Assembly (NCBI GenBank): GCA_021769885.1
Contig: JAETSA010000017.1
Location: forward strand, 1 to 50,817
Source: Bacillota bacterium
GTDB taxonomy: Bacteria > Bacillota > Clostridia > Oscillospirales > Acutalibacteraceae
Direction: 5' to 3'
DNA: 50,817 bases
A program made the translations under genes and the position numbers. Each line of letters begins with the position of its first letter. Positions within the stretch are counted from its first letter, which is position 1. This document shows positions 16,029 through 29,602 of this stretch, one piece after another. The notes beneath the pieces are model-generated. The model saw nothing but the letters and a program-made list of their open reading frames with translations. It was not told the DNA's origin and searched no databases.

Positions 16029-18332
16029 ATGCGTACAAATAAATTGTTGCTCGACAACTGGAGATTTAAAAAGGATACGGCTTTGCCGCCTACCGCACTG
16101 CCGACGGACTGGGAAACGGTCACACTGCCCTACACCTGGAACGGCAAAGACGGGCAGGATGGCGGCAACGATTATTTTCGCGGCACGGGATGCTTTGTGC
16201 GCGCGGTTTCGCGGTCGGAGCTACCCGACGGCGCGGTGCATTACATTCAGTTTGACGGTGTAAATTCCTCTGCGGATGTGTTTTGGAACGGCAAAAAAAT
16301 CGCGCACCACGACGGCGGCTATTCTACCTTCCGCGCACAGATTCCTGAAATTCGGGACGAGAACCTCTTAACCGTGCTTGCCGACAACGCACCGAACGAT
16401 ACAGTCTATCCACAGCTTGCGGACTTCACCTTTTACGGTGGAATCTACCGCGAGGTGACACTCATCGGCGTTGCGGAACAGCACTTTGATTTGGCGTATT
16501 ACGGCGCGCCGGGCATTGCTGTCACGCCGCAGGTGCACGGTGCGGACGCGGAAATTCAGATAGAAACCTACGTGCAGACCGATAAGCCTTGCGAAATCCG
16601 TTATGAAATCCTTGCGGACGGCGAAACGGTGTGGCATGGCAGTACGGATACCGAAACCCGCAGTTTGACCGCTACACTTCCGAATGTGCATTTATGGGAC
16701 GGTGTAAACGACCCGTATCTTTATACCGCACGGGCGACGCTTTTGTGTGACGGCGAAGCGGTGGACACCGTTTCTGCGCGATTCGGGTGCAGGAGCTTTA
16801 AAATCGACTCGCAAAAGGGCTTCATTTTGAACGGCAGACCCTACCCACTGCGCGGCGTGTCCCGTCATCAGGACAGACCTGAAATCGGCAATGCGCTGAC
16901 TCTAGAACACCACAAAGCGGATATCGACCTCATTTGTGAAATGGGTGCGAATACCGTGCGGTTGGCGCATTATCAGCACGCGCAGGCGTTTTATGATCTT
17001 TGTGATGAAAAAGGGCTTGTGGTCTGGGCGGAGATTCCCTATATCTCTAAAGCTTTGCCGAACGCTGTGGAGAATACGAAATCCCAAATGACAGAGCTGA
17101 TTTGTCAGAATTATAACCATCCCTGCATCGTGGTTTGGGGACTTTCCAATGAAATTACGATGAATACCCCGCCCACCGACGCGTCGATGCTTGCAAATCA
17201 CACAATGCTCAACGACCTAGCGCACCGCTTGGATAAAACCCGACTGACCACGCTTGCCGTCGTGTCGATGTGCGGTACGGGGGAGGACTATGTGCATCTG
17301 ACGGATGTTGTGTCGTACAATCATTATTTCGGCTGGTACGGCGGCCATGTGCATATGAACGGTCCGTGGTTTGACGATTTCCATAAAAAATACCCGAACC
17401 GCCCTATCGGCATCAGCGAATACGGGTGCGAGGCGCTGAACTGGCACACCTCTGAACCTGAACAAGGCGATTACACCGAGGAATATCAGGCGTATTACCA
17501 CGAGGAAATGATCAAGCAGATTATCGACCGCCCGTATCTTTGGGCAACGCATGTGTGGAATATGTTTGATTTCGCGGCGGATGCGCGCGCCGAGGGCGGC
17601 GAAAACGGAATGAACCACAAGGGGTTGGTCACCTTTGACCGCACCTATAAAAAGGACAGCTTCTATGCGTATAAGGCGTGGCTTTCCAAGGACCCGTTTG
17701 TGCATATTTGCGGCAAACGGTATGTGAACCGTGCGGAGGATATCGCCAAAATCACAGTATATTCCAACTGCGCAGAGGTCGAGCTGTTCGCAAACGGCGA
17801 GAGCTGCGGCAAGCAGAAAAAAGGCAAATATCCGTTCTTTTATTTTGAAGTGCGCAATGTGGGCACAACCGCGCTTACGGCAAAGGCGGGGGATTGCACC
17901 GATACCGCTGAAATTCGCAAGGTGGCGGAATTTGACAACAGCTACCGAATGAAGGACGAGGGCGGCGTAATCAATTGGTTCGAGATTACCACCCCTGCCG
18001 GGTATTTTTCCATCAACGATACCATCGGCAGTGTGCTTGCGACCGTACGCGGTAAGCTGTTTGTGCTGAAATTTGCAAAAGTTTTGCTTTCAGGGCTGAA
18101 AAGCACCGATGCGAAGTCTGCAAAGCCAAAGGAAAAACAGCCAAAAGTGAAAAAAGGCAAAACAAAGTCCAAAGGCATTACCGTAATGGGCTTTACCCTG
18201 AACAAGACGATGTTTGAAATGGCGAAGGGCTTTTCCATTAAGCGCGTCTTTATGATGCTCGGCGGCAAGTTCCAAAAAGAGGATATTTTGAAGCTGAACG
18301 CGTCCTTAAACAAAATCAAAAAGCCGAAGTAA
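16029..18332 (+). CDS. Glycoside hydrolase family 2 beta-galactosidase-like enzyme
   Basis: A 767-aa cytoplasmic enzyme without a signal peptide. It has the GH2 sugar-binding domain (about 1-150), an Ig-like domain (150-260), and a TIM barrel (260-560) with acid/base Glu375 in SNE and nucleophile Glu464 in ISEYG. A DUF4982-like domain follows (565-630). The end is unusual: after residue 665 there is a Lys-rich linker (about 692-716) and a small basic helical segment to residue 767. The partner symporter upstream suggests action on an imported beta-galactoside or beta-glucuronide. NCTxx and WxxNxxK features that separate these activities were not decisive, so the exact sugar is open. Confidence 0.92.
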   Translation: MRTNKLLLDNWRFKKDTALPPTALPTDWETVTLPYTWNGKDGQDGGNDYFRGTGCFVRAVSRSELPDGAVHYIQFDGVNSSADVFWNGKKIAHHDGGYSTFRAQIPEIRDENLLTVLADNAPNDTVYPQLADFTFYGGIYREVTLIGVAEQHFDLAYYGAPGIAVTPQVHGADAEIQIETYVQTDKPCEIRYEILADGETVWHGSTDTETRSLTATLPNVHLWDGVNDPYLYTARATLLCDGEAVDTVSARFGCRSFKIDSQKGFILNGRPYPLRGVSRHQDRPEIGNALTLEHHKADIDLICEMGANTVRLAHYQHAQAFYDLCDEKGLVVWAEIPYISKALPNAVENTKSQMTELICQNYNHPCIVVWGLSNEITMNTPPTDASMLANHTMLNDLAHRLDKTRLTTLAVVSMCGTGEDYVHLTDVVSYNHYFGWYGGHVHMNGPWFDDFHKKYPNRPIGISEYGCEALNWHTSEPEQGDYTEEYQAYYHEEMIKQIIDRPYLWATHVWNMFDFAADARAEGGENGMNHKGLVTFDRTYKKDSFYAYKAWLSKDPFVHICGKRYVNRAEDIAKITVYSNCAEVELFANGESCGKQKKGKYPFFYFEVRNVGTTALTAKAGDCTDTAEIRKVAEFDNSYRMKDEGGVINWFEITTPAGYFSINDTIGSVLATVRGKLFVLKFAKVLLSGLKSTDAKSAKPKEKQPKVKKGKTKSKGITVMGFTLNKTMFEMAKGFSIKRVFMMLGGKFQKEDILKLNASLNKIKKPK

Positions 18333-19152: not shown

Positions 19153-19187
19153 AAAAAAACAGGGCAAGGGTTTTACCCTTGCCCTGC
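19153..19187 (-). terminator. Terminator of the cohesin/small-peptide operon
   Basis: On the minus strand, CAGGGCAAGGG pairs with CCCTTGCCCTG around a short loop and is followed by eight Ts. It lies about 60 bases after the last small peptide gene, which supports that peptide being the true end of the operon. Confidence 0.9.
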
Positions 19188-19249
19188 CTTTATAGTTGTT
19201 CAGATTGCACCGTGTTTCACGATGTCAGCTCACGACTCATTTGGTGGAA

Positions 19250-19372
19250 TTAGATATCCAACCAACCATCGTCGCCGCCCTCAACGGGGCCGGTACCAAT
19301 GGAGAGTGTGATAACGTCTTCAACATCATAAAGCGAAACATCAAATTCAGGTGCTGTGTAAGCCTGTTTCAT
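19250..19372 (-). CDS. Small 40-aa peptide, paralogue 2 (VITxS motif)
   Basis: A 40-codon gene, MKQAYTAPEFDVSLYDV followed by EDVITLSIGTGPVEGG and ending DDGWLDI. AAAGGAG lies 10 bases before the ATG and a strong terminator follows. It is clearly paralogous to the peptide just upstream: both share YTAPxFDxSxxD, VITxSxG and a Gly/Asp/Glu-rich tail. There is no signal peptide and no Cys. Short ORFs of this look (YxxPxxE...DVITxS) are known to me from Clostridia but without assigned function. It is the last gene of the operon that carries the two cohesin-like proteins. It may be a precursor or leader peptide; this is speculation. Confidence 0.75.
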   Translation of the reverse strand: MKQAYTAPEFDVSLYDVEDVITLSIGTGPVEGGDDGWLDI

Positions 19373-19412
19373 TGAAGCTTTCTCCTTTCAAATATCAAAA
19401 TCATACAAAATC

Positions 19413-19550
19413 TTACCAAACAATCACAGCGTCGCGATCTCCCTCATCCGGCAAAGTCGGACCGACAGACATTGTAATAACCTCCTGCGGGTCAAACGCG
19501 GAAAAATCGAAATCGGGCGCAGTATATTGTCGGTTATTGAGTGTTGTCAC
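19413..19550 (-). CDS. Small 45-aa peptide, paralogue 1 (VITxS motif)
   Basis: A 45-codon gene starting at GTG: MTTLNNRQYTAPDFDFSAFD, then PQEVITMSVGPTLPDEGDRD and a hydrophobic end AVIVW. It starts 18 bases after the stop of the cohesin-like gene. No strong Shine-Dalgarno site is present, and an in-frame TGA lies six codons upstream, so translation probably depends on coupling. It matches the next peptide in YTAPxFDxS, VITxSxG and the acidic tail, which argues that both are real genes. Function unknown. Confidence 0.68.
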   Translation of the reverse strand: MTTLNNRQYTAPDFDFSAFDPQEVITMSVGPTLPDEGDRDAVIVW

Positions 19551-19568
19551 TGTATACTCAAGCTTTCA

Positions 19569-20810
19569 TTAGCCCGCAAAGGGGAATGCAGCAAGGTAAG
19601 AAGCAACAATGCCTGTATAATTTGTAGCGAGGAGAGCTTCGTAAGAAGCATCATAGAACACAACCTGAGCTGCGCCGCTTGCGTCAAGATACTGTGCAAA
19701 TGCAACGTAGGTGACGTCGGAACGGGTTTCAGCACTTGTGATGTCGATGCGGCAACCGAATTTTGCATCAGCGCCGTCAGCGTGCTGAATGTAATCTGTG
19801 GTTGCTACCTGGTAACCGTCAGCAGCAGTGCCTGCAACAGCTGCTTTCGCAGTGTCAAGGTTAAAGCCTGCGGTGCCTTTGTAAGCAACGAAGCCTACGG
19901 ATGTGATTGCGTTTGCAGTCGCACCCGCTTTACCTGTGTTTGCAAAGTAAGCGTCCCAATCCGCAGCAGAGATGCTGGAGATTACACGGAACTGGAATGC
20001 GTCTGCAACGGTAGTTGCGCTTGTCGCAGTCATCTTAACCTGGCTGTTTGCCTTGGTCAGAACGGGGCCTGCAGGAGCAACTTCACCAACAGTTGCCGAA
20101 GCAACAGCTGCGCTTACATCATAAGTGTCTACAGCAGGAGATACGTACTTTGTAGAACCATCAAGGAATGCTTTGAACGCAGTCTGCGCGGGGTTACACT
20201 TGATTGCACCTGAGGTGATTGCAACATTGACAGGAGTACCGTCAGCGATATCGTCTCTCAGCTTCAACTGGAACTGAATAAACGGCTCAGCATCAGCGTT
20301 GACCTCGTCAGCGGGCAAACCATTTGTATTCAAACCAGCGTTCGGATGAGAACCGGAAAGGTTACGAGAAAGAACCACTTTGAGATATTCATTATACAAT
20401 TCATTCTCTTCAGCAGTATTTGCGGTAGCAATACGAGTTTTGATTGCTGCTGCTTGCCAAGCCCAGTTAAGACCGGTAATCTCATTATAGAAAGAGCTAA
20501 AGGTATCGTTTGCCGATGCAGTTGCTTTAACTGTATTAGCAGCGTTCACGGTAGTGTCAAATACCGCAGAGTTCACGCCGAAAAGCATCGAACCTGTGTG
20601 GAACTCAACACCACTATCGCCCTTAAGGAACACCTTTACTGTTACGGTCTCACCAGCATTGTAACTGGCTTTGTCAAGTTCGACTTTATAAGCAATTCTC
20701 TTGCCATCAGCAAGAGTATAACCATCATCGAAACCTGCGGACACAGGCAGAACAGCTACACTAAGGCAAAGAACCAGCGCAAGCAAAACTGCACCAATTT
20801 TTTTCATCAT
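19569..20810 (-). CDS. Secreted protein with cohesin-like domain
   Basis: A 413-aa secreted protein. The signal peptide is MMKK plus a hydrophobic core ending VSAG (about residue 26). Residues about 40-240 look like a cohesin/carbohydrate-binding beta-sandwich: YKVELDKASYNAGETVTVKVFL at the start, a SMLFGVNSAVFD strand pair, then IQFQLKLRDDIADGTPVNV. The remaining ~170 residues form a second beta-rich domain (QVKMTATSATTVADAFQFRVIS, TYVAFAQYLDASG) of no known family. There is no dockerin, sortase motif or SLH domain. It follows the cohesin-dockerin gene by 24 bases with AAAGGAG before the ATG. The cohesin assignment rests on pattern only. Confidence 0.72.
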   Translation of the reverse strand: MMKKIGAVLLALVLCLSVAVLPVSAGFDDGYTLADGKRIAYKVELDKASYNAGETVTVKVFLKGDSGVEFHTGSMLFGVNSAVFDTTVNAANTVKATASANDTFSSFYNEITGLNWAWQAAAIKTRIATANTAEENELYNEYLKVVLSRNLSGSHPNAGLNTNGLPADEVNADAEPFIQFQLKLRDDIADGTPVNVAITSGAIKCNPAQTAFKAFLDGSTKYVSPAVDTYDVSAAVASATVGEVAPAGPVLTKANSQVKMTATSATTVADAFQFRVISSISAADWDAYFANTGKAGATANAITSVGFVAYKGTAGFNLDTAKAAVAGTAADGYQVATTDYIQHADGADAKFGCRIDITSAETRSDVTYVAFAQYLDASGAAQVVFYDASYEALLATNYTGIVASYLAAFPFAG

Positions 20811-20834
20811 AGTAGATATTCTCCTTTGAGTAAA

Positions 20835-21950
20835 TTAAACGAGCTCATATACGTTGTCAACTGCCAACGCAGCAACATCTGCCTGAGTGGGCATACCCAT
20901 ATAGTTGCTTTCATAATAGCCCATTGTGAAACCATCCGCAGATGTCGGCCAACCATCTCCATCGATGTCGCCAGCCATAAACTGCGCAAGGGTGTCGATG
21001 CCCATATAGTTCGCTTCATAATAGGAAACAACAAAGTCATCGGAAGAACCAATCTGACCATCTGCATCGACATCACCGAAGTAAACAAATACATAGGTTT
21101 CGAGAACGGTCTCGCCATCTGCATCCAAAACTTCGATAATTGTACCTGTGGTTTCTACGCCGGAATCCGGCAAAGTAACACGAAGATATTCATCACCAAG
21201 GGTAGTTGTCAGATAGTCTGCAATTGCGCCTTCGGGAGTTAAATCATCGTTCCAACCAAGAGTATCCATACCGTAAACGGAGCCGGTATGCTCTTCGCTT
21301 TTATTCTGCAAATCGATTACAGGCTGAGAGGGAGCAGTATCCTTGATTACAAGGGTGTTCGGCTCAGCAGCGCCGCCGATTGTGACAGACGAATTGTTTA
21401 AGGTGAATGTCTGCCCAATCATAATGTCTTCAGAAGTAATTGTAGCATTGGCTTTCTGACCGCAATAGAGTTTGCCGGTCATATTGCCTAAAGCTTTCTG
21501 ATCTTCTGCTTTCAACTGAACGGGAGAGACACCGTTTGCCTTCGCAGTTAACTGGAAGGTGAAGAGCGTTACATTGTTTAATACCTGTGCTTTCACACCG
21601 GCAACTTCGCTCTTCGGAGCAAATGCGACTGTAAGGCAGCCATTGTTGTTGAAAGCGTTGGCATCCGCCGCGCCCGCACCGTAAATATCGGCATTGGGTG
21701 TGAACGAATTTTCAACATAGTCAAACAAAGCTGCATCGTAGTGTACCGGAACACCGATAGGGCCAGCGTAATAGTCAGTTGTGACTGCTACGGTGACGGT
21801 AACGGTATCGCCGACCTCAACCTGCGTTGCGCTCGGAGTGACTGTGAATGTTGCATTGCCCGGCGTTACAGCAAACGAGCCGAATGCAAACATTGTTGCC
21901 AACATAACAACAGCTAAAATGACGCCAATCGCTTTTTTAGCTTTTGTCAT
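20835..21950 (-). CDS. Secreted cohesin-dockerin protein (mini-scaffoldin-like)
   Basis: A 371-aa secreted protein with a signal peptide (1-27). A cohesin-like domain (about 30-205) opens FTVTPSATQVEVGDTVTVTV, has GVPVHYDAALFDYV, and ends SVTIGG. A linker and small beta module (TGTIIEVLDADGE...YVFVYFG) follow. The C-terminal dockerin (292-371) has two calcium loops, GDVDADGQIGSSDD and GDIDGDGWPTSAD, each followed by a helix with Y-x-ANYMGI or Y-x-SNYMGM. A cohesin and a dockerin on one chain is the plan of an adaptor scaffoldin: it could bind one dockerin partner while docking on another cohesin. The ATG at 21950 has AAGGAGG; upstream in-frame residues are not part of the gene. Confidence 0.82.
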   Translation of the reverse strand: MTKAKKAIGVILAVVMLATMFAFGSFAVTPGNATFTVTPSATQVEVGDTVTVTVAVTTDYYAGPIGVPVHYDAALFDYVENSFTPNADIYGAGAADANAFNNNGCLTVAFAPKSEVAGVKAQVLNNVTLFTFQLTAKANGVSPVQLKAEDQKALGNMTGKLYCGQKANATITSEDIMIGQTFTLNNSSVTIGGAAEPNTLVIKDTAPSQPVIDLQNKSEEHTGSVYGMDTLGWNDDLTPEGAIADYLTTTLGDEYLRVTLPDSGVETTGTIIEVLDADGETVLETYVFVYFGDVDADGQIGSSDDFVVSYYEANYMGIDTLAQFMAGDIDGDGWPTSADGFTMGYYESNYMGMPTQADVAALAVDNVYELV

Positions 21951-21980
21951 AAAATCCTCCTTATATAATTCTTCCCATAT

Positions 21981-22009
21981 AATATACAGGATGCACAGAA
22001 GAATGTCAA
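21981..22009 (-). promoter_or_regulatory. Promoter of the cohesin-dockerin operon
   Basis: On the minus strand, TTGACA (22009-22004) and TATATT (21986-21981) are 17 bases apart, giving a leader of about 25 bases. The operon (two cohesin-like proteins and two peptides) is therefore separate from the upstream 1736-aa gene. The rest of the gap to 22360 holds one GGAACGACACTGAGGTCGTTCC repeat hairpin (22238-22260) and little else. Confidence 0.82.
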
Positions 22010-22294
22010 CAGAAAAAAACTGCCAACGAAAAATCCCAAACGTCATCTGCTCAATACAGCAGCTATCACTCTACCGTTTCGGCAGACACAAATGTGGTGA
22101 ACCGTTGGAATTCCCCTCAGTGCAAGACTTTTTAACTGCACATTACAATACCAATAACGACTTTCCTTCTTTGGAGTCGCTATGGGGGGAAAATGTCTGA
22201 TTTAGGAAATTGCGGGGATGTGTGTATAGCATCTTGCGGAACGACACTGAGGTCGTTCCCTACACGTGCATACACAAAAGTTGCAATTTCACTG

Positions 22295-22360: not shown

Positions 22361-25300
22361 TTACGCACGATTCTGTTCAATTTCCTGTGCACCGACAGCT
22401 GCGTTGAAGATTGCAGAGTAGTCAGCAAGTTCAACATCGTCGCCGCTGGTTACCATCGCAGCGTCTTTATAGACACCGTTCAAGGTTGCACCGGTATTGA
22501 TGTTCTGGTTCACGACTGCAGCGTCGAATGCGTCGATTGCGCCGTCACCGTTGACATCACCGTAAATCACAACGTAGTAGGTTGTAAGAACGCCGATGCC
22601 TTCGATGGAAAGGTCAACCTTCGCGCCCGTGCCGAAGAAGCCGGAAGCAGAAGCGGTCGGAGTTGCAACAGCATTCTCAACACTTGCTTTGACGTGATTC
22701 ATAAGAGCGTCAATGCTTGCGATGGAGCCGGGGGTGATACCATTGATGATCTTCACGCCCTGTGCAACTTCTGTTGTTGTGTCACCGTCATTTTCAACAA
22801 GCTTCACGGTGCACTCGAAGTTATCGATTGCAGCTTTGAGGGCAGCTTCAGCAGCTGCGACTCTTGCAAGGCCTGTTGCGGTGTTTTCACGGTCATACTT
22901 CAGGAACTCAGCAGCAGAGCGATTATAGAGAATCTGCTCATTGCCGTCTTCGTCTGTATAGGTATAACCAAGAGCTTTAATCAATGCACCGTAAGCATCA
23001 GCTTCGGTGATGTTTGCCTTCGGAGCATAATACTGAGAATAGTTGAAGATGATTTCTGCCTGTGCAACAAGTGCCTCGAGGTCGGCAAGGAGGCCAAGCT
23101 CTTTGACAGATCTGTCTTTGCGGAGAAGTTCATTCTGCGCCTTCATCAATTCGTATTTTGCATCAAAGACTGTGGACTGCAATGCATTCGGATCGTTGTT
23201 GACTGTAACTGCATTGCTCAGTGCGGACTGGTAAGCCGCCCAGGAATCTGCAGCGTAGGTCGCCTCGTTGTAATTCTGTGCATTTGCATAAGCAATTTCT
23301 TTTGCAAGGAACTGCTTTTCGGTTGTCTTCTTAATCAAGAAACGCTTATAGTACTTCAAAAGGTTTGCAGTGTTTGCGTTATCCAGCATCGAGTAAGAAG
23401 GTGCATGCCACTCTGCAAGTGTATTTGCATAATTTGCAAGATCTTCCGATGTCGGCTCAATCACTGTGTTACGGATACCAAGTGCTTTCTTGCCTTCTGC
23501 GCTTGCGATTACAGCTTCGATTTCCTCAGCGGAGAGACCGCTGCCTTCGATTCTGTTTTCGGGTGCTGCAGGAGGATTGTAAGCATTGATTCTGTTTCTA
23601 ACATCAGTTCTTACATCCTGATAGTTGAAGTAATCATAGAGTCTGTAATCCTGATAGTTGATTTCCGTTGTGCCTTCGGGCTCGGTTTCATTGATTGCAT
23701 CCAGCAAGGTCTGCGGAACGTTGGTTGTAGCAGCAGAGGAAGCATCTGCTTCCGCCATTGCGTTATAAGCATCGTTCAAAGCTTTAACCAAAGCTTCCTG
23801 CGTAGCAACACCGAACTCGTTTGCAAATACGGTCTTATCCATCATATAAGGCAAGGAGAGGGTTCTCTTTGCATTCAACATTGCGGTCTGGAACGCATTC
23901 CACTGCGCATCTGTTGCTGCCGGGAAGGTATCGCGGCTGATGGACTGTTTGTCATATTTTTCAAACGCTTCCTGTACGGAGGTCAAATCTACAATGTAGA
24001 TATCGCCGAGGTCGGGCGTTTTGATGGTGACTTTTACGTCGCCGCCATCTTGAACACCAACTTGCCAACCAGTAGCGCTTTTTTTATGGTTGTGCCAAAT
24101 GACATCCAAGCTGCCGAGAGGACCGGTCGTTGTACCGGAGACATATGCGGAAACATCCGCCTCCGCGTTATAGGTCAGCGGAGCTAACACATTGGTCTTG
24201 TTGGCATCGTCAGAGCCGTCCATCCAGCCGAGTTTGTCTGCCTTCAGCTGGGCATTCTCATTGCAGCCATGGACATAGTCCTGGTTTGCCTTCACAAATT
24301 CCGGAAGGTTGCTGCCGGTTGCACTGTATACCCACTCTGCATAGTCCGAAGCTGAATTGTTCGTATAGGTCAAGGACAGACCGGCGATCGCTGACTGCAC
24401 ATTGGGTGCATAAATTACCTTGTTGAAGGCTTCACGCTGTACACGTACTGCATCACGTTTAACCGCCGCTGAACTATTGACCTGGAAGCCTGATGTATGT
24501 GCGGCAATTTGGGTGTTCTCTTCTGTGGAGTCATCCATATACGCATAAATGTACTTCGTGTACTGTGTACCGACTGCTTTGCCGCCTTTACCTGTAAGGG
24601 TATAGGTCATAGCAAGGTAGAAGGGTTTGTCAGACGCATAAGCACCCTTTATGCGGAAGGAGGCCTTTGCCCACGGAGATACAACGGTTTCTGTAAACGC
24701 TGTAGAACCATCCTCCATATAAATCGAGAGGTTCGGGTCGGAAGCCGTGATGCTCTTAATTGTGATGATATAGTCGCTGTCGTAAACGCCAGCCGCGCGA
24801 CGAAGCAACATACCCATAGCATCGTTACGGATTGTAAACGTGCCGTCTACCGCACCGCCGTTGGCAAGCAAATATGCTCCGCCGTTCGCTGTGTCAGTCA
24901 AGGAAAGCGCAGGTGTTGCGAAGGTCTGCGGATCGGTCTTCCAACCGATGAAGAAGCCTGCGAAAGGCATAATCGGCTGAAGCATACCGTTATTGTAAGC
25001 CGTAAAGAGCTTGTTGAGAAGCGTTTCCACAAAGGAAGCCAAGTTGCCCTGGTTCAACAATGCGTCAATGCTTGTGAAGGTGGAAGAGCTAATCAGCTCA
25101 CCGCCTGCAACCTTAGAAAGGATGTTGTTGAGCAGATTTCTAACAACTGTAACAACCGCTTTCAGGGTCGGTTCGGTTCTGAGCGCGCTGTTCATCGGCA
25201 CATTGAAGAGGCCGTTTGCCTCTGTAGCACCGGTGATTTTGGTCAAGTTAAGATCCAAAATGCCCATAACGAGATTCTCTCTCAACGCGGTCATGACCCA

Positions 25301-27571
25301 ATCTTGTTTGGATGTATCCACATTCAAAAGCATATTGATGGGCAGAAGGCTGTTGAGGATATCGCCGATTTTTATCCAAGGATTCTGTGCGGTAGCAAGA
25401 TCGATATCTTCGAAGGTATCTACGAATTTGATCATGCTCCAGCCCCACTCGAACTCGTCGGTGAGCGCCCAGTCAATGATCCAGTCAACTGTATCTTCCC
25501 AGCCGGTCTGGTCGAAGGAATCAAGCTTATAGGTCTTGGAATCAGCAAAGTGATAGCCGTTTGTTGCATCATCTTCGCCGAGGTCAGCAAGATTTCTAAG
25601 GTAGGACATACCGATGTCCACACCCATAGTCAAGCAGACATCCAGCCAGTAGCCGTTGTCTTTGCCCGCAACGAAAGTCTTGTTGTTGTAATTTGCATAG
25701 ATGAGTTCGTCGTAGTTGTAAGTGGGGACAAACTGTGTTGCCAGCTCACGGATAACTGCTGCAAGAACTGCGCCGAGCTTCACGCCGCTGCCTTTGATGG
25801 TGTCAGCCGTCGGCAGAATCAACTGCGGCATCAGGAAGTCAAGTAAGGTGCACGCAACGCCAACCAAGATTTCCTGATTGTCGTTTGCAGTCATAATGAG
25901 ATCATAATACTTGTCGGGATCTGCGTAGTTGGAGCCGAAGATGATTTCGGGCTCAATCGGAAGGAGTGCGCGAGCAGCTTTCTTGATGTTCTCCACAAGG
26001 TTGCTGTTATCGCCTTTCGTCCAATTCAGCATCGATTTCAGTTCGGGTGTTGCCGCGATGTCGATGACCTTCGCAACAAAATCATTCAACGCCTGGAAGA
26101 GCGTGGAATAGCCTGCCGCAGATTTTGTGCCGTCTGCACCCGGGATAAACTCATTGATTGCGTTATCCTCTACCTTCCAGTCCCAGTTGATGAGGCTGAA
26201 GTATTTGTTGACATCATTGATGTCGCCGGCATAAATCTGATCCTCAAAACGATAATAGTGGTTGCCGTTGATTACTTTGTAATCCGACCACTCCCACAGA
26301 TATTCGCCCTGCTCCTGGGTGAAGAACACATCGGAAGAATCTGCAAGTGCTTTTACTTCAGCACTGCCGACTTCACCGATGTAGGTGAACTTTGTACCGA
26401 GCAATTCTGCGAAGAGCTTCTTCACGGAGCCGTTGAGAACAACAGGCGCCATTTCTGCAAATACATACGGGATGAATCTGTAGAACAACTGCGCCGGAGT
26501 ATCCGTCGTCAAATCGATGGATGCCGTGCCTGCTGCCATTGCTGCCGCAAAAGAGGGCAGGAACTGGCTGTCATTCTTATAATACTTCAGATTTTCTTTG
26601 CTACCGTCCGTATTGGTTCTGGTGTAGACATAACGGTCAGGACCGGTATAATCCTCTGCCTGCTCTTCAAGCGTTCTGACGTAAGTGTCTTGGTCTGTCG
26701 TCTTGTAAGTCTTGGTCTGCGTATCATAGCTGTAAGCCACAATCGTGTTCCCGTTCTTTACATAATAGACACGTACATCGGCACCTTCGCCGGGCAGTGT
26801 GTGGTTGCTTACGCAATTGCCGTTCGCATCTTCCACATAGGTGGTAATGCTCATATCATTCGTGAAGAGTCTCTGCACGAACTCGTTGAGCGTTGCCTCC
26901 ATACCGCCGTTGCCGGCAGTGTTTGCAAGCTGGTCAGCACGGGCTTTCGTGTCATCCCATCTCTCGAACAGAGGATAAATCAAGCCTTTGATGAGACCGG
27001 GAATATCACCGATGATGCTCAAATCCACACCTGCGAGCGCAGAGCTTGCTACGCCGAGGTCAACGTTACCGGAGCGGACAACACCGGCAAGAAGCGATCT
27101 GTTCTGATTCAGGAATTCCAACAATTCATAGATGATTGTCAACTGATCAACAGATTCACGGGTCATCCCGGCCCGCCAGGTAGAAACATCCAAGTCCTTC
27201 AAAATACCCAAAAGACCTGCAACAAGTTTTACCAAGCCGTTTTCTCTCAAAGACTTGACGTTGTCAATCGTGCCAAGCAATGCATTGACGGAGCGCAAGT
27301 CAACCGTCAGGGAAAGACCCGCAACATCAAACAGCTTGCCCATATTGATGTTAGCATCGCCCAAAACGTTGTCCAAATAGTCAAACAAAATAGACATACG
27401 CTCTTCTGTTGACAGTCTGGTAACAGCCCCGTAAGGGCTGTATGCAGCGTTTGCTTCCAAATCAGCAGTGGTCTTATAATTCGCCTTTGCCGCAGAAGCC
27501 AACACAGACATACTTGAGAAAATCATTACAATTGCCAAGATAACACTCAGCAATTTTGTTGACTTTTTCAT
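22361..27571 (-). CDS. Very large secreted dockerin-bearing protein
   Basis: A 1736-aa secreted protein starting MKKSTKLLSVILAIVMIFSS with signal cleavage near ASAA (residue 28). I recognise no catalytic domain. Residues about 40-700 are helical with alternating loops. About 920-1180 look like beta-sandwich modules (TIRNDAMGMLLRRAAGVYDSD and following). About 1200-1600 contain long Ala/Glu/Asn-rich helices with repeated YNAMAEAD/ATYAADSWAAYQSAL patterns, similar to FIVAR-type helical repeats of surface proteins. The end (about 1640-1736) has a TGAKVDL...YYVVIYG module and a dockerin: one good calcium loop, GDVNGDGAIDAFD, and a weaker second repeat (GDDVELAD). It could be held by a cohesin such as those encoded next door. 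It has its own promoter and a long structured leader. Confidence 0.85.
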   Translation of the reverse strand: MKKSTKLLSVILAIVMIFSSMSVLASAAKANYKTTADLEANAAYSPYGAVTRLSTEERMSILFDYLDNVLGDANINMGKLFDVAGLSLTVDLRSVNALLGTIDNVKSLRENGLVKLVAGLLGILKDLDVSTWRAGMTRESVDQLTIIYELLEFLNQNRSLLAGVVRSGNVDLGVASSALAGVDLSIIGDIPGLIKGLIYPLFERWDDTKARADQLANTAGNGGMEATLNEFVQRLFTNDMSITTYVEDANGNCVSNHTLPGEGADVRVYYVKNGNTIVAYSYDTQTKTYKTTDQDTYVRTLEEQAEDYTGPDRYVYTRTNTDGSKENLKYYKNDSQFLPSFAAAMAAGTASIDLTTDTPAQLFYRFIPYVFAEMAPVVLNGSVKKLFAELLGTKFTYIGEVGSAEVKALADSSDVFFTQEQGEYLWEWSDYKVINGNHYYRFEDQIYAGDINDVNKYFSLINWDWKVEDNAINEFIPGADGTKSAAGYSTLFQALNDFVAKVIDIAATPELKSMLNWTKGDNSNLVENIKKAARALLPIEPEIIFGSNYADPDKYYDLIMTANDNQEILVGVACTLLDFLMPQLILPTADTIKGSGVKLGAVLAAVIRELATQFVPTYNYDELIYANYNNKTFVAGKDNGYWLDVCLTMGVDIGMSYLRNLADLGEDDATNGYHFADSKTYKLDSFDQTGWEDTVDWIIDWALTDEFEWGWSMIKFVDTFEDIDLATAQNPWIKIGDILNSLLPINMLLNVDTSKQDWVMTALRENLVMGILDLNLTKITGATEANGLFNVPMNSALRTEPTLKAVVTVVRNLLNNILSKVAGGELISSSTFTSIDALLNQGNLASFVETLLNKLFTAYNNGMLQPIMPFAGFFIGWKTDPQTFATPALSLTDTANGGAYLLANGGAVDGTFTIRNDAMGMLLRRAAGVYDSDYIITIKSITASDPNLSIYMEDGSTAFTETVVSPWAKASFRIKGAYASDKPFYLAMTYTLTGKGGKAVGTQYTKYIYAYMDDSTEENTQIAAHTSGFQVNSSAAVKRDAVRVQREAFNKVIYAPNVQSAIAGLSLTYTNNSASDYAEWVYSATGSNLPEFVKANQDYVHGCNENAQLKADKLGWMDGSDDANKTNVLAPLTYNAEADVSAYVSGTTTGPLGSLDVIWHNHKKSATGWQVGVQDGGDVKVTIKTPDLGDIYIVDLTSVQEAFEKYDKQSISRDTFPAATDAQWNAFQTAMLNAKRTLSLPYMMDKTVFANEFGVATQEALVKALNDAYNAMAEADASSAATTNVPQTLLDAINETEPEGTTEINYQDYRLYDYFNYQDVRTDVRNRINAYNPPAAPENRIEGSGLSAEEIEAVIASAEGKKALGIRNTVIEPTSEDLANYANTLAEWHAPSYSMLDNANTANLLKYYKRFLIKKTTEKQFLAKEIAYANAQNYNEATYAADSWAAYQSALSNAVTVNNDPNALQSTVFDAKYELMKAQNELLRKDRSVKELGLLADLEALVAQAEIIFNYSQYYAPKANITEADAYGALIKALGYTYTDEDGNEQILYNRSAAEFLKYDRENTATGLARVAAAEAALKAAIDNFECTVKLVENDGDTTTEVAQGVKIINGITPGSIASIDALMNHVKASVENAVATPTASASGFFGTGAKVDLSIEGIGVLTTYYVVIYGDVNGDGAIDAFDAAVVNQNINTGATLNGVYKDAAMVTSGDDVELADYSAIFNAAVGAQEIEQNRA

Positions 27572-28891: not shown

Positions 28892-29602
28892 TCACTTTAA
28901 ACTTTTGACCTCCAAATTTTCATTCAGATAGGTATAGGAATCAAATCCGCCTATACTGCTCGCATCCATGCACAGATAAGAGGCTTGCACCATATTTTCA
29001 CCCCACTGAATGTAATACAGCGTTTGCTCCATCGTCAAATTGCCGCTGTCATCCGCATTCTTCATTTCAATGATTGTGCAAGGCAGCTGCGATGCGGTCA
29101 ATTCAGCATTTTTAATTTCGTAAGTCAGATTTTTAAATTCCTCAGAATTGTTCTTCAAATATTCCATCCCGTCTATCTGCGTTTGCAGATAGGCACTCAT
29201 CGTACGGGTTTCATTCAGCACAACCATTCCGCCGATTTCAAAGGTAATATTTTCGTTATTGTTCCGCAAAAACTTGCCGTCATTGCTCATTTTCCAATCG
29301 TCGGGCATCGTCAGGCGGTACTGCGGCGTGGCGATTGCGTGTTCGCCGCGAACCTGATCCGGGAACGTAACCGCATTCGTTTGGCGTTCGCCGTTGGCAT
29401 CCTTGACATATTTTCCGTTTTCATCCGTTACATAAACGATAATATCCCCTGCATTGTTCAGCACGGTATTGCCCTCATCATCGGTCACGGCAATGTATTC
29501 CTGGCCGTTTTTGCCCTCAATAATCACCTTTTTGCCGCACGCGGCGAACAGTGTCACAAGCAGCAGCAAAACGCAAATGACGGCTATAATTTTATTCTGC
29601 AT
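28892..29602 (-). CDS. Putative lipoprotein
   Basis: A 236-aa lipoprotein: MQNK, a hydrophobic core, and lipobox LFAAC (Cys22). Residues 30-80 form short beta repeats (EYIAVTDDEGNTVLN, IIVYVTDENGKYVKD). Residues 95-236 form a domain with YRLTMPDDWKMSNDG, then ITFEIGGMVVL and LPCTIIEMKN, resembling PsbP/DUF-type stress-domain lipoproteins of Firmicutes. I cannot name the family with certainty. It is transcribed alone from a consensus promoter. GGAGG is 8 bases before the ATG. Confidence 0.8.
   Translation of the reverse strand: MQNKIIAVICVLLLLVTLFAACGKKVIIEGKNGQEYIAVTDDEGNTVLNNAGDIIVYVTDENGKYVKDANGERQTNAVTFPDQVRGEHAIATPQYRLTMPDDWKMSNDGKFLRNNNENITFEIGGMVVLNETRTMSAYLQTQIDGMEYLKNNSEEFKNLTYEIKNAELTASQLPCTIIEMKNADDSGNLTMEQTLYYIQWGENMVQASYLCMDASSIGGFDSYTYLNENLEVKSLK

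Follow-up and report, generated by a model that had tools for sequence, protein, structure and literature searches.

The stretch of DNA analysed here, hereafter the window, is a 50,817-nucleotide contig (JAETSA010000017.1, our contig C7) of the Acutalibacteraceae genome GCA_021769885.1, an assembly of 2.32 Mb in 38 contigs that is 97.6% complete. Its minus strand carries, in the order of transcription, a long gene that we call Big, the gene for a putative adaptor (protein A), the gene for its putative receptor (protein B) and genes for two short paralogous peptides. Big (1736 amino acids; 22361–27571, minus strand as for all coordinates of this locus) looks secreted and ends in a conserved asymmetric dockerin, with a Pfam dockerin match at 22469–22564 and a weak FIVAR match below the Pfam cut-off. 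The peptides, of 45 and 40 amino acids, are encoded at 19413–19550 and 19250–19372. A promoter-like site precedes A at 21981–22009 (TTGACA, a spacing of 17, TATATT; a match at 11/12 consensus positions, which is no evidence of function), and a terminator-like hairpin of 17 pairs followed by a T run lies just after the second peptide at 19155–19191. Because of these consensus-matched ends, A, B and the peptides appear to be transcribed together, in a unit whose extent matches the operon drawn in an earlier reading of the DNA (the sequence-only reading). The consensus scan finds eight promoter-like and eight terminator-like sites in the region, compared with 3.7 and 3.3 in shuffles.

Protein A (371 amino acids; 20835–21950) consists of a signal peptide, a cohesin, an X-like module and a dockerin. 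Its start is taken at 21950; an extended frame with its start at 22046 would begin ahead of the promoter-like site. The cohesin part (residues 26–195, 21366–21875; border set by alignment) passes the cut-off of the Pfam cohesin family PF00963 over residues 37–144 (E 1.4e-6, 29.0 versus 24.1 bits), and 6 of 22 A orthologues match the family at E 0.01. The X-like module (residues 196–287, 21090–21365), likewise delimited by alignment, matches no family. The C-terminal two-loop dockerin (residues 288–371, 20838–21089) is the variable part that we call the plug. Two calcium loops are readable in its sequence and alignment, and hhalign of the A dockerins against nine dockerin sequences from this genome gives 98.0% (92.6% for the window's dockerin alone, 0.1% for the X module as a control). 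An AlphaFold2 model of A (mean pLDDT 89.3, pTM 0.56) finds its best match in the Protein Data Bank (PDB) in the ScaC cohesin of Ruminococcus flavefaciens (5lxv, E 1.4e-10), and cohesin or scaffoldin entries make up 49/50 among the matches listed. The domain layout of A is that of an adaptor scaffoldin. The presence of a cohesin and a two-loop dockerin on one chain, as the sequence-only reading had proposed, is thus borne out by Pfam, the calcium loops, hhalign and fold. The Pfam profiles taken by themselves bear it out in part: PF00963 recognizes A and not B, and the dockerin family PF00404 gives no match to the window's own A but is found in 11/22 aligned orthologues (best E 1.2e-10).

The two repeats of the A dockerin resemble each other more than they resemble their counterparts in other species (mean score 98 within a protein versus 36 between species), and a repeat's own partner is its best match in 19/22 A proteins. 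The A dockerin hence displays the internal two-fold sequence symmetry by which dual-binding-mode dockerins are recognized. Such symmetry accompanies a dual binding mode, according to PMC5429695.

Protein B (413 amino acids; 19569–20810) divides into a variable N-terminal part, the socket (residues 27–244, 20079–20732), and a C-terminal domain of no known family delimited by alignment, which we call BC (residues 245–413, 19572–20078). The socket falls below the curated cut-off of PF00963 (E 0.0041, 17.7 versus 24.1 bits), and at E 0.01 only 1/25 orthologues match. All B domains pooled give 95.9% against cohesins by hhalign, over 52 columns only, with BC as a control at 0.1%. The AlphaFold2 model of B (pLDDT 88.3, pTM 0.63) has cohesins 2w1n and 5lxv as its top PDB matches; 26/50 among the matches listed are cohesin or scaffoldin entries and the other 24 are integrins, antibodies, adhesins and similar proteins. 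By predicted fold and profile comparison, then, the N-terminal half of B is a cohesin, to be called cohesin-fold rather than Pfam cohesin. The second cohesin-like protein that had been noticed after A is recovered in this form. Sequence searches of Pfam, NCBIfam and the PDB return no match for BC, and the one NCBIfam match of B as a whole is far below cut-off; BC also forms the end of other long proteins in the genus.

That genus consists of uncultured gut Clostridia and includes Candidatus Fimenecus excrementavium. The Big/A/B gene set recurs across it, and is therefore more than a chance arrangement. Big has matches in 34/39 genomes of the genus, two of them only near its dockerin end, which leaves about 32. 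Co-variation was analysed in the 22 genomes that yielded both A and B in full, 15 with the gene order Big-A-B and seven with Big-B-A; in G004, A lies ~32 kb away. Among the genomes outside this sample, G041, G009, G006, G007 and G053 have no Big match, and in G008 and G050 the match to Big is confined to the vicinity of its dockerin end. G001 (partial A), G049 (no A nearby) and G021 (A without X-dockerin) were used only as out-of-sample cases, and G002, G005, G013, G014, G022, G024 and G044 lack complete A and B in the stretches examined.

Between-species distances were computed domain by domain and compared by Mantel tests, with aspartyl-tRNA synthetase (AspRS) as a proxy for species. The N terminus of Big was tried as a proxy and dropped for AspRS; Big diverges much faster (42% versus 96% identity between G000 and G016). 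The X-dockerin of A and the cohesin of B vary as a matched pair across species, whereas the cohesin of A and BC follow species more closely. The distances of the B cohesin correlate with those of the A X module (0.60) and the A dockerin (0.52); the corresponding values for the A cohesin are 0.15 and 0.19, and 0.10 with the B cohesin. Species signal is nearly absent from the X-dockerin (0.007) and the B cohesin (0.05), compared with 0.45 for the A cohesin and 0.44 for BC. Given AspRS, the partial correlation of X-dockerin and B cohesin is 0.59 (p 0.0002). Clustering gives the same picture: with six clusters the adjusted Rand index is 0.91 for X-dockerin and B cohesin versus 0.15 for X-dockerin and A cohesin, and with 4 to 8 clusters the ranges are 0.52–0.94 and 0.03–0.23. 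The match between plug and socket is kept where A does not immediately precede B, in seven genomes (0.71, p 0.009). Out of sample, G001 and G021 pair as expected and G049 only weakly. Within A itself, cohesin and dockerin share one chain and are nearly independent of each other across species.

Sister species display the same division along the locus. In local alignments of G019 and G020, identity is 99% for AspRS, 86% for the A cohesin, 35% for the X-dockerin, 23% for the B cohesin and 74% for BC. The values, in the same order, are 96, 88, 47, 30 and 55% for G003 and G040, and 96, 65, 41, 22 and 46% for the window's genome and G016. Identity along A drops sharply near residues 195–200, at the border of cohesin and X module, falling for example from 60–100% to 10% in G003 and G040. 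The middle block, from the X module of A through the cohesin of B, has thus undergone more replacement than its flanks.

Direct repeats of 0.6–2.2 kb that are 98.6–100% identical lie at the locus in G012, G019 and G020 (L087 7529–9716 and 10906–13093; L090 6996–9188 and 10755–12940; L082 8671–9292 and 12241–12862). The repeats include, besides the plug end of Big or of A, either B or its start, and their near identity points to recent recombination at the locus. Separately, G013, a genome with 9% contamination, encodes a long protein with leucine-rich repeats (LRR) and immunoglobulin-like (Ig-like) domains that carries a B-cohesin-like stretch (E 1.9e-32) and a dockerin on one chain (L097 6125–11194, minus strand).

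The dockerin of Big differs between the two gene orders. In the 15 Big-A-B genomes it is unlike the A plugs, with best scores of 122–169 versus 338–918 in the other seven, and in those seven (7/7) the plug of Big is closest to the A plug of its own genome. In G004 the two plug coding stretches are 95% identical. The nonsynonymous and synonymous divergences (dN/dS) between the A and Big copies are 0.02/0.18 in G004, 0.12/0.32 in G046, 0.30/1.87 in G015 and 0.20/1.03 in G017; two further pairs give 0.04/0.13 and 0.01/0.07 and the seventh is identical, so that the ratio is below 0.4 in all six computable pairs. Some plug copies are recent, as the direct repeats in G012, G019 and G020 show; those of G004, G046, G015 and G017 are older and constrained. 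The constrained older copies suggest that Big and A retain the same plug through sharing one receptor.

The plug co-varies with the socket and neither tracks species, and we infer from this that the cohesin of B receives the dockerin of A and that both are exchanged jointly, as matched partners. On this reading, to which we assign a probability of about 0.68, A would be an adaptor and B its receptor on the outer side of the cell, and species would swap plug and socket together. The symmetric A dockerin would plug into the B cohesin, possibly in two alternative orientations, and B would be held at the cell surface through BC. The cohesin of A would then project from the surface and bind clients that bear a dockerin. 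In the 15 Big-A-B genomes Big is the strongest candidate for such a client, by way of its conserved asymmetric dockerin, whereas in the seven Big-B-A genomes Big, bearing the plug of A, would sit on B directly. Replacement of the pair as a set would leave each species with its own lock and key.

One genome bears on the route to the surface. The A-type cohesin of G021 carries choline-binding repeats (E 4.3e-25) at the position that the plug has in other genomes. Choline-binding repeats are cell-wall-binding modules. Their presence in place of the plug suggests that contact of the plug with B is the route by which the cohesin of A reaches the surface, so that this contact probably means surface anchoring. 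This in turn makes B the likely anchor, through BC. The location of the A and B proteins at the cell surface, and their binding to each other, are inferences throughout.

A tentative extension, which we think rather less probable than the adaptor–receptor reading itself, is that A dockerin and B cohesin form a polymorphic recognition locus. Incompatible pairs would exist per species, perhaps per strain, and would be exchanged as a set, with diversity itself selected. Adaptors and clients might thereby stick to their own kind, as private goods or kin labels, or the locus might present a surface target that shifts under pressure from phages or the host.

The sequence-only reading had suggested a small non-cellulosomal assembly system, and the dockerin and cohesin repertoire of the genome agrees with this. 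Its adaptor proposal and its non-cellulosomal proposal are thus both supported, and the comparison across species extends them by a probable partner for A, namely B. Pfam finds 11 dockerin proteins, which supplies the genome-wide count that the earlier reading had left to be made, and four cohesin places, that of B being below the cut-off. The 11 proteins carry LRR/BspA repeats, subtilase, transglutaminase-like, SH3 or Ig-like domains, hydrolase matches under the threshold, or no known feature; by Pfam none of them (0/11) has a catalytic carbohydrate-enzyme domain. A further match of the dockerin-bearing subtilase is to an accessory domain that takes its name from chitobiase/beta-hexosaminidase. 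Two other cohesin proteins, C11 (520 amino acids) and C4 (204 amino acids), end by eye in I-P-x-T-x-G, a hydrophobic stretch and basic residues, and the genome has five sortase matches. C11 and C4 are likely surface cohesins for dockerin-bearing secreted proteins. Whereas these two end in a sortase-like signal, B ends in BC and its cohesin varies with one adaptor. Cohesin and dockerin matches are present in all 39 genomes searched, at 1–16 and 3–57 per genome.

The main rival to the adaptor–receptor reading is linkage: X-dockerin and B cohesin, being adjacent, would be swapped in one recombination tract without binding each other, and the dockerin of A would bind another cohesin. The recent tandem repeats show that recombination is active here. 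Moreover, a number of observations weigh against the adaptor–receptor reading. The two domains are adjacent in the 15/22 genomes of order Big-A-B, where one tract could carry both, and in most of the others, of order Big-B-A, the plug of Big adjoins B; the plug of A could be converted from it, and such conversion may therefore contribute. Given AspRS, the X-dockerin also correlates with the A cohesin (0.21, p 0.011) and with BC (0.29, p 0.005), and the B cohesin correlates with BC (0.40). In one of the 14 closest pairs listed, G046 and G015, the B cohesins are 62% alike and the plugs 37%. The Big dockerin correlates with the A cohesin at 0.54, given AspRS and the Big N terminus, and indistinguishably with BC at 0.55; because BC gives equal co-variation, that the A cohesin holds the dockerin of Big in Big-A-B genomes is put forward as a hypothesis. 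BC is without a Pfam or PDB sequence match and B ends without a sortase signal visible by eye, so B can only be proposed as an anchor. Finally, hhalign values for the six B subtypes are 62.9, 88.3, 3.1, 88.6, 95.2 and 0.7%, and the window's own subtype is the one at 3.1%, a poor match to the cohesin profile. Linkage has its own difficulties. The plug–socket match persists in the seven genomes without A directly upstream of B, including G004 with its distant A; the A and Big plugs of G015 and G017 stay alike under purifying selection near synonymous saturation; and neither plug nor socket tracks species. We consider linkage without binding to be unlikely.

The poor profile match of the window's subtype, together with the score of B below the Pfam cut-off and the 24 other beta-sandwich proteins among the 50 fold matches listed, could also mean that the N-terminal domain of B is some other beta-sandwich that binds no dockerin. 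Cohesins nevertheless rank top among the fold matches, the pooled B domains match the cohesin profile and the domain co-varies with a dockerin, which makes a non-cohesin B more improbable still than linkage. Since one chain of A holds both a cohesin and a dockerin, A might instead polymerise, the dockerin of each molecule binding the cohesin of the next and Big or B capping the fibre. The partners of such a self-binding pair would be expected to change together, and the cohesin of A hardly changes with its dockerin (0.19; adjusted Rand 0.15); self-polymerisation is accordingly disfavoured and we regard it as very improbable. A conventional cellulosome component of a plant-fibre degrader would share its modules and architecture with ScaC, and the ScaC cohesin is indeed the best fold match of A. 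This explanation is set aside, as the least credible of all, on the lack of catalytic carbohydrate-enzyme domains in the Pfam-detected dockerin proteins of this genome.

The surroundings of the locus modify one statement of the sequence-only reading, that no plant-cell-wall enzyme is nearby. A GH2-family gene is in fact present at 16029–18332 on the opposite strand, although it has no dockerin match. Upstream of Big, a putative lipoprotein of 236 amino acids is encoded at 28892–29602 (minus strand), with lookalikes, by eye, upstream of Big in several relatives. Rfam gives no match at the gathering threshold between 17000 and 30000, and no tRNA was found in the window.

The peptides that follow B belong to a family of ~40 amino acids (Y-x-A-P-x-F-D ... 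V-I-T-x-S-I-G), often present in two copies, with relatives in L199–L238 and a match at E 0.01 in 35/39 genomes of the genus. In 9/20 further loci a gene ending in BC stands upstream of the peptides on the same strand; four of these loci had been preselected for BC, which leaves 5/16 otherwise. The shape of the peptides recalls the leaders of lasso-type ribosomally synthesized and post-translationally modified peptides. After B and the peptides, G042 and G043 encode a kinase-like P-loop protein (by eye, with no Pfam match) and a PqqD-like protein (by Pfam in L142, by eye in L136); an S24-like peptidase in G042 (by eye) and an ABC transporter (by Pfam in L142) belong to the same gene runs. The loci concerned are L136 4479–8076 (minus strand), L142 9407–12815 (plus strand) and L240 5229–8530 (plus strand). 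A similar set occurs in the window's genome, where it lies on contig C28 and apart from the peptides. These genes would fit a peptide-modification and export set.

Few known protein plugs are as tight as cohesin–dockerin pairs. These pairs have been studied mostly in cellulose degraders, and here a gut genus seems to employ them in a surface assembly that lacks carbohydrate enzymes. If plug and socket are replaced together between sister species, as proposed, the genus would offer, as a natural library, both matching and non-matching pairs from which specificity residues could be read. Orthogonal plugs could be drawn from it, and it would allow the species-specific assembly of a bacterial surface to be put to the test. 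Among the papers listed by a literature search, none reports a matched cohesin–dockerin pair exchanged between species; most subscription journals lay outside that search, which is no proof of absence.

The nearest known system is ScaC of R. flavefaciens, a small protein that, like A, has its cohesin on the N-terminal side and its dockerin at the C-terminal end. Natural ScaC types have a conserved cohesin and a variable dockerin, and in the accessible text of PMC3197198 the first dockerin repeat is strongly conserved, the second varies and no receptor changing in step is described. The R. flavefaciens dockerins studied have a single binding mode, according to PMC5429695. ScaC, however, belongs to a cellulosome, and in A both dockerin repeats change together and stay alike, while the likely receptor, the product of the adjacent gene, varies along with these repeats. 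A second counterpart is the non-cellulosomal cohesin–dockerin system of Clostridium perfringens; structures 2w1n and 2jh2, presumably from this system, are among the fold matches. There, as proposed here, the cohesin–dockerin contact is made outside a cellulosome, and the cohesin fold is close to that of A and B. The weak FIVAR match of Big counts as a further point of likeness. A single binding mode is reported for the C. perfringens dockerin in PMC5429695. The system proposed here differs in having a dedicated adaptor with a symmetric dockerin and a dedicated receptor, and no enzyme domain was found in A or B.

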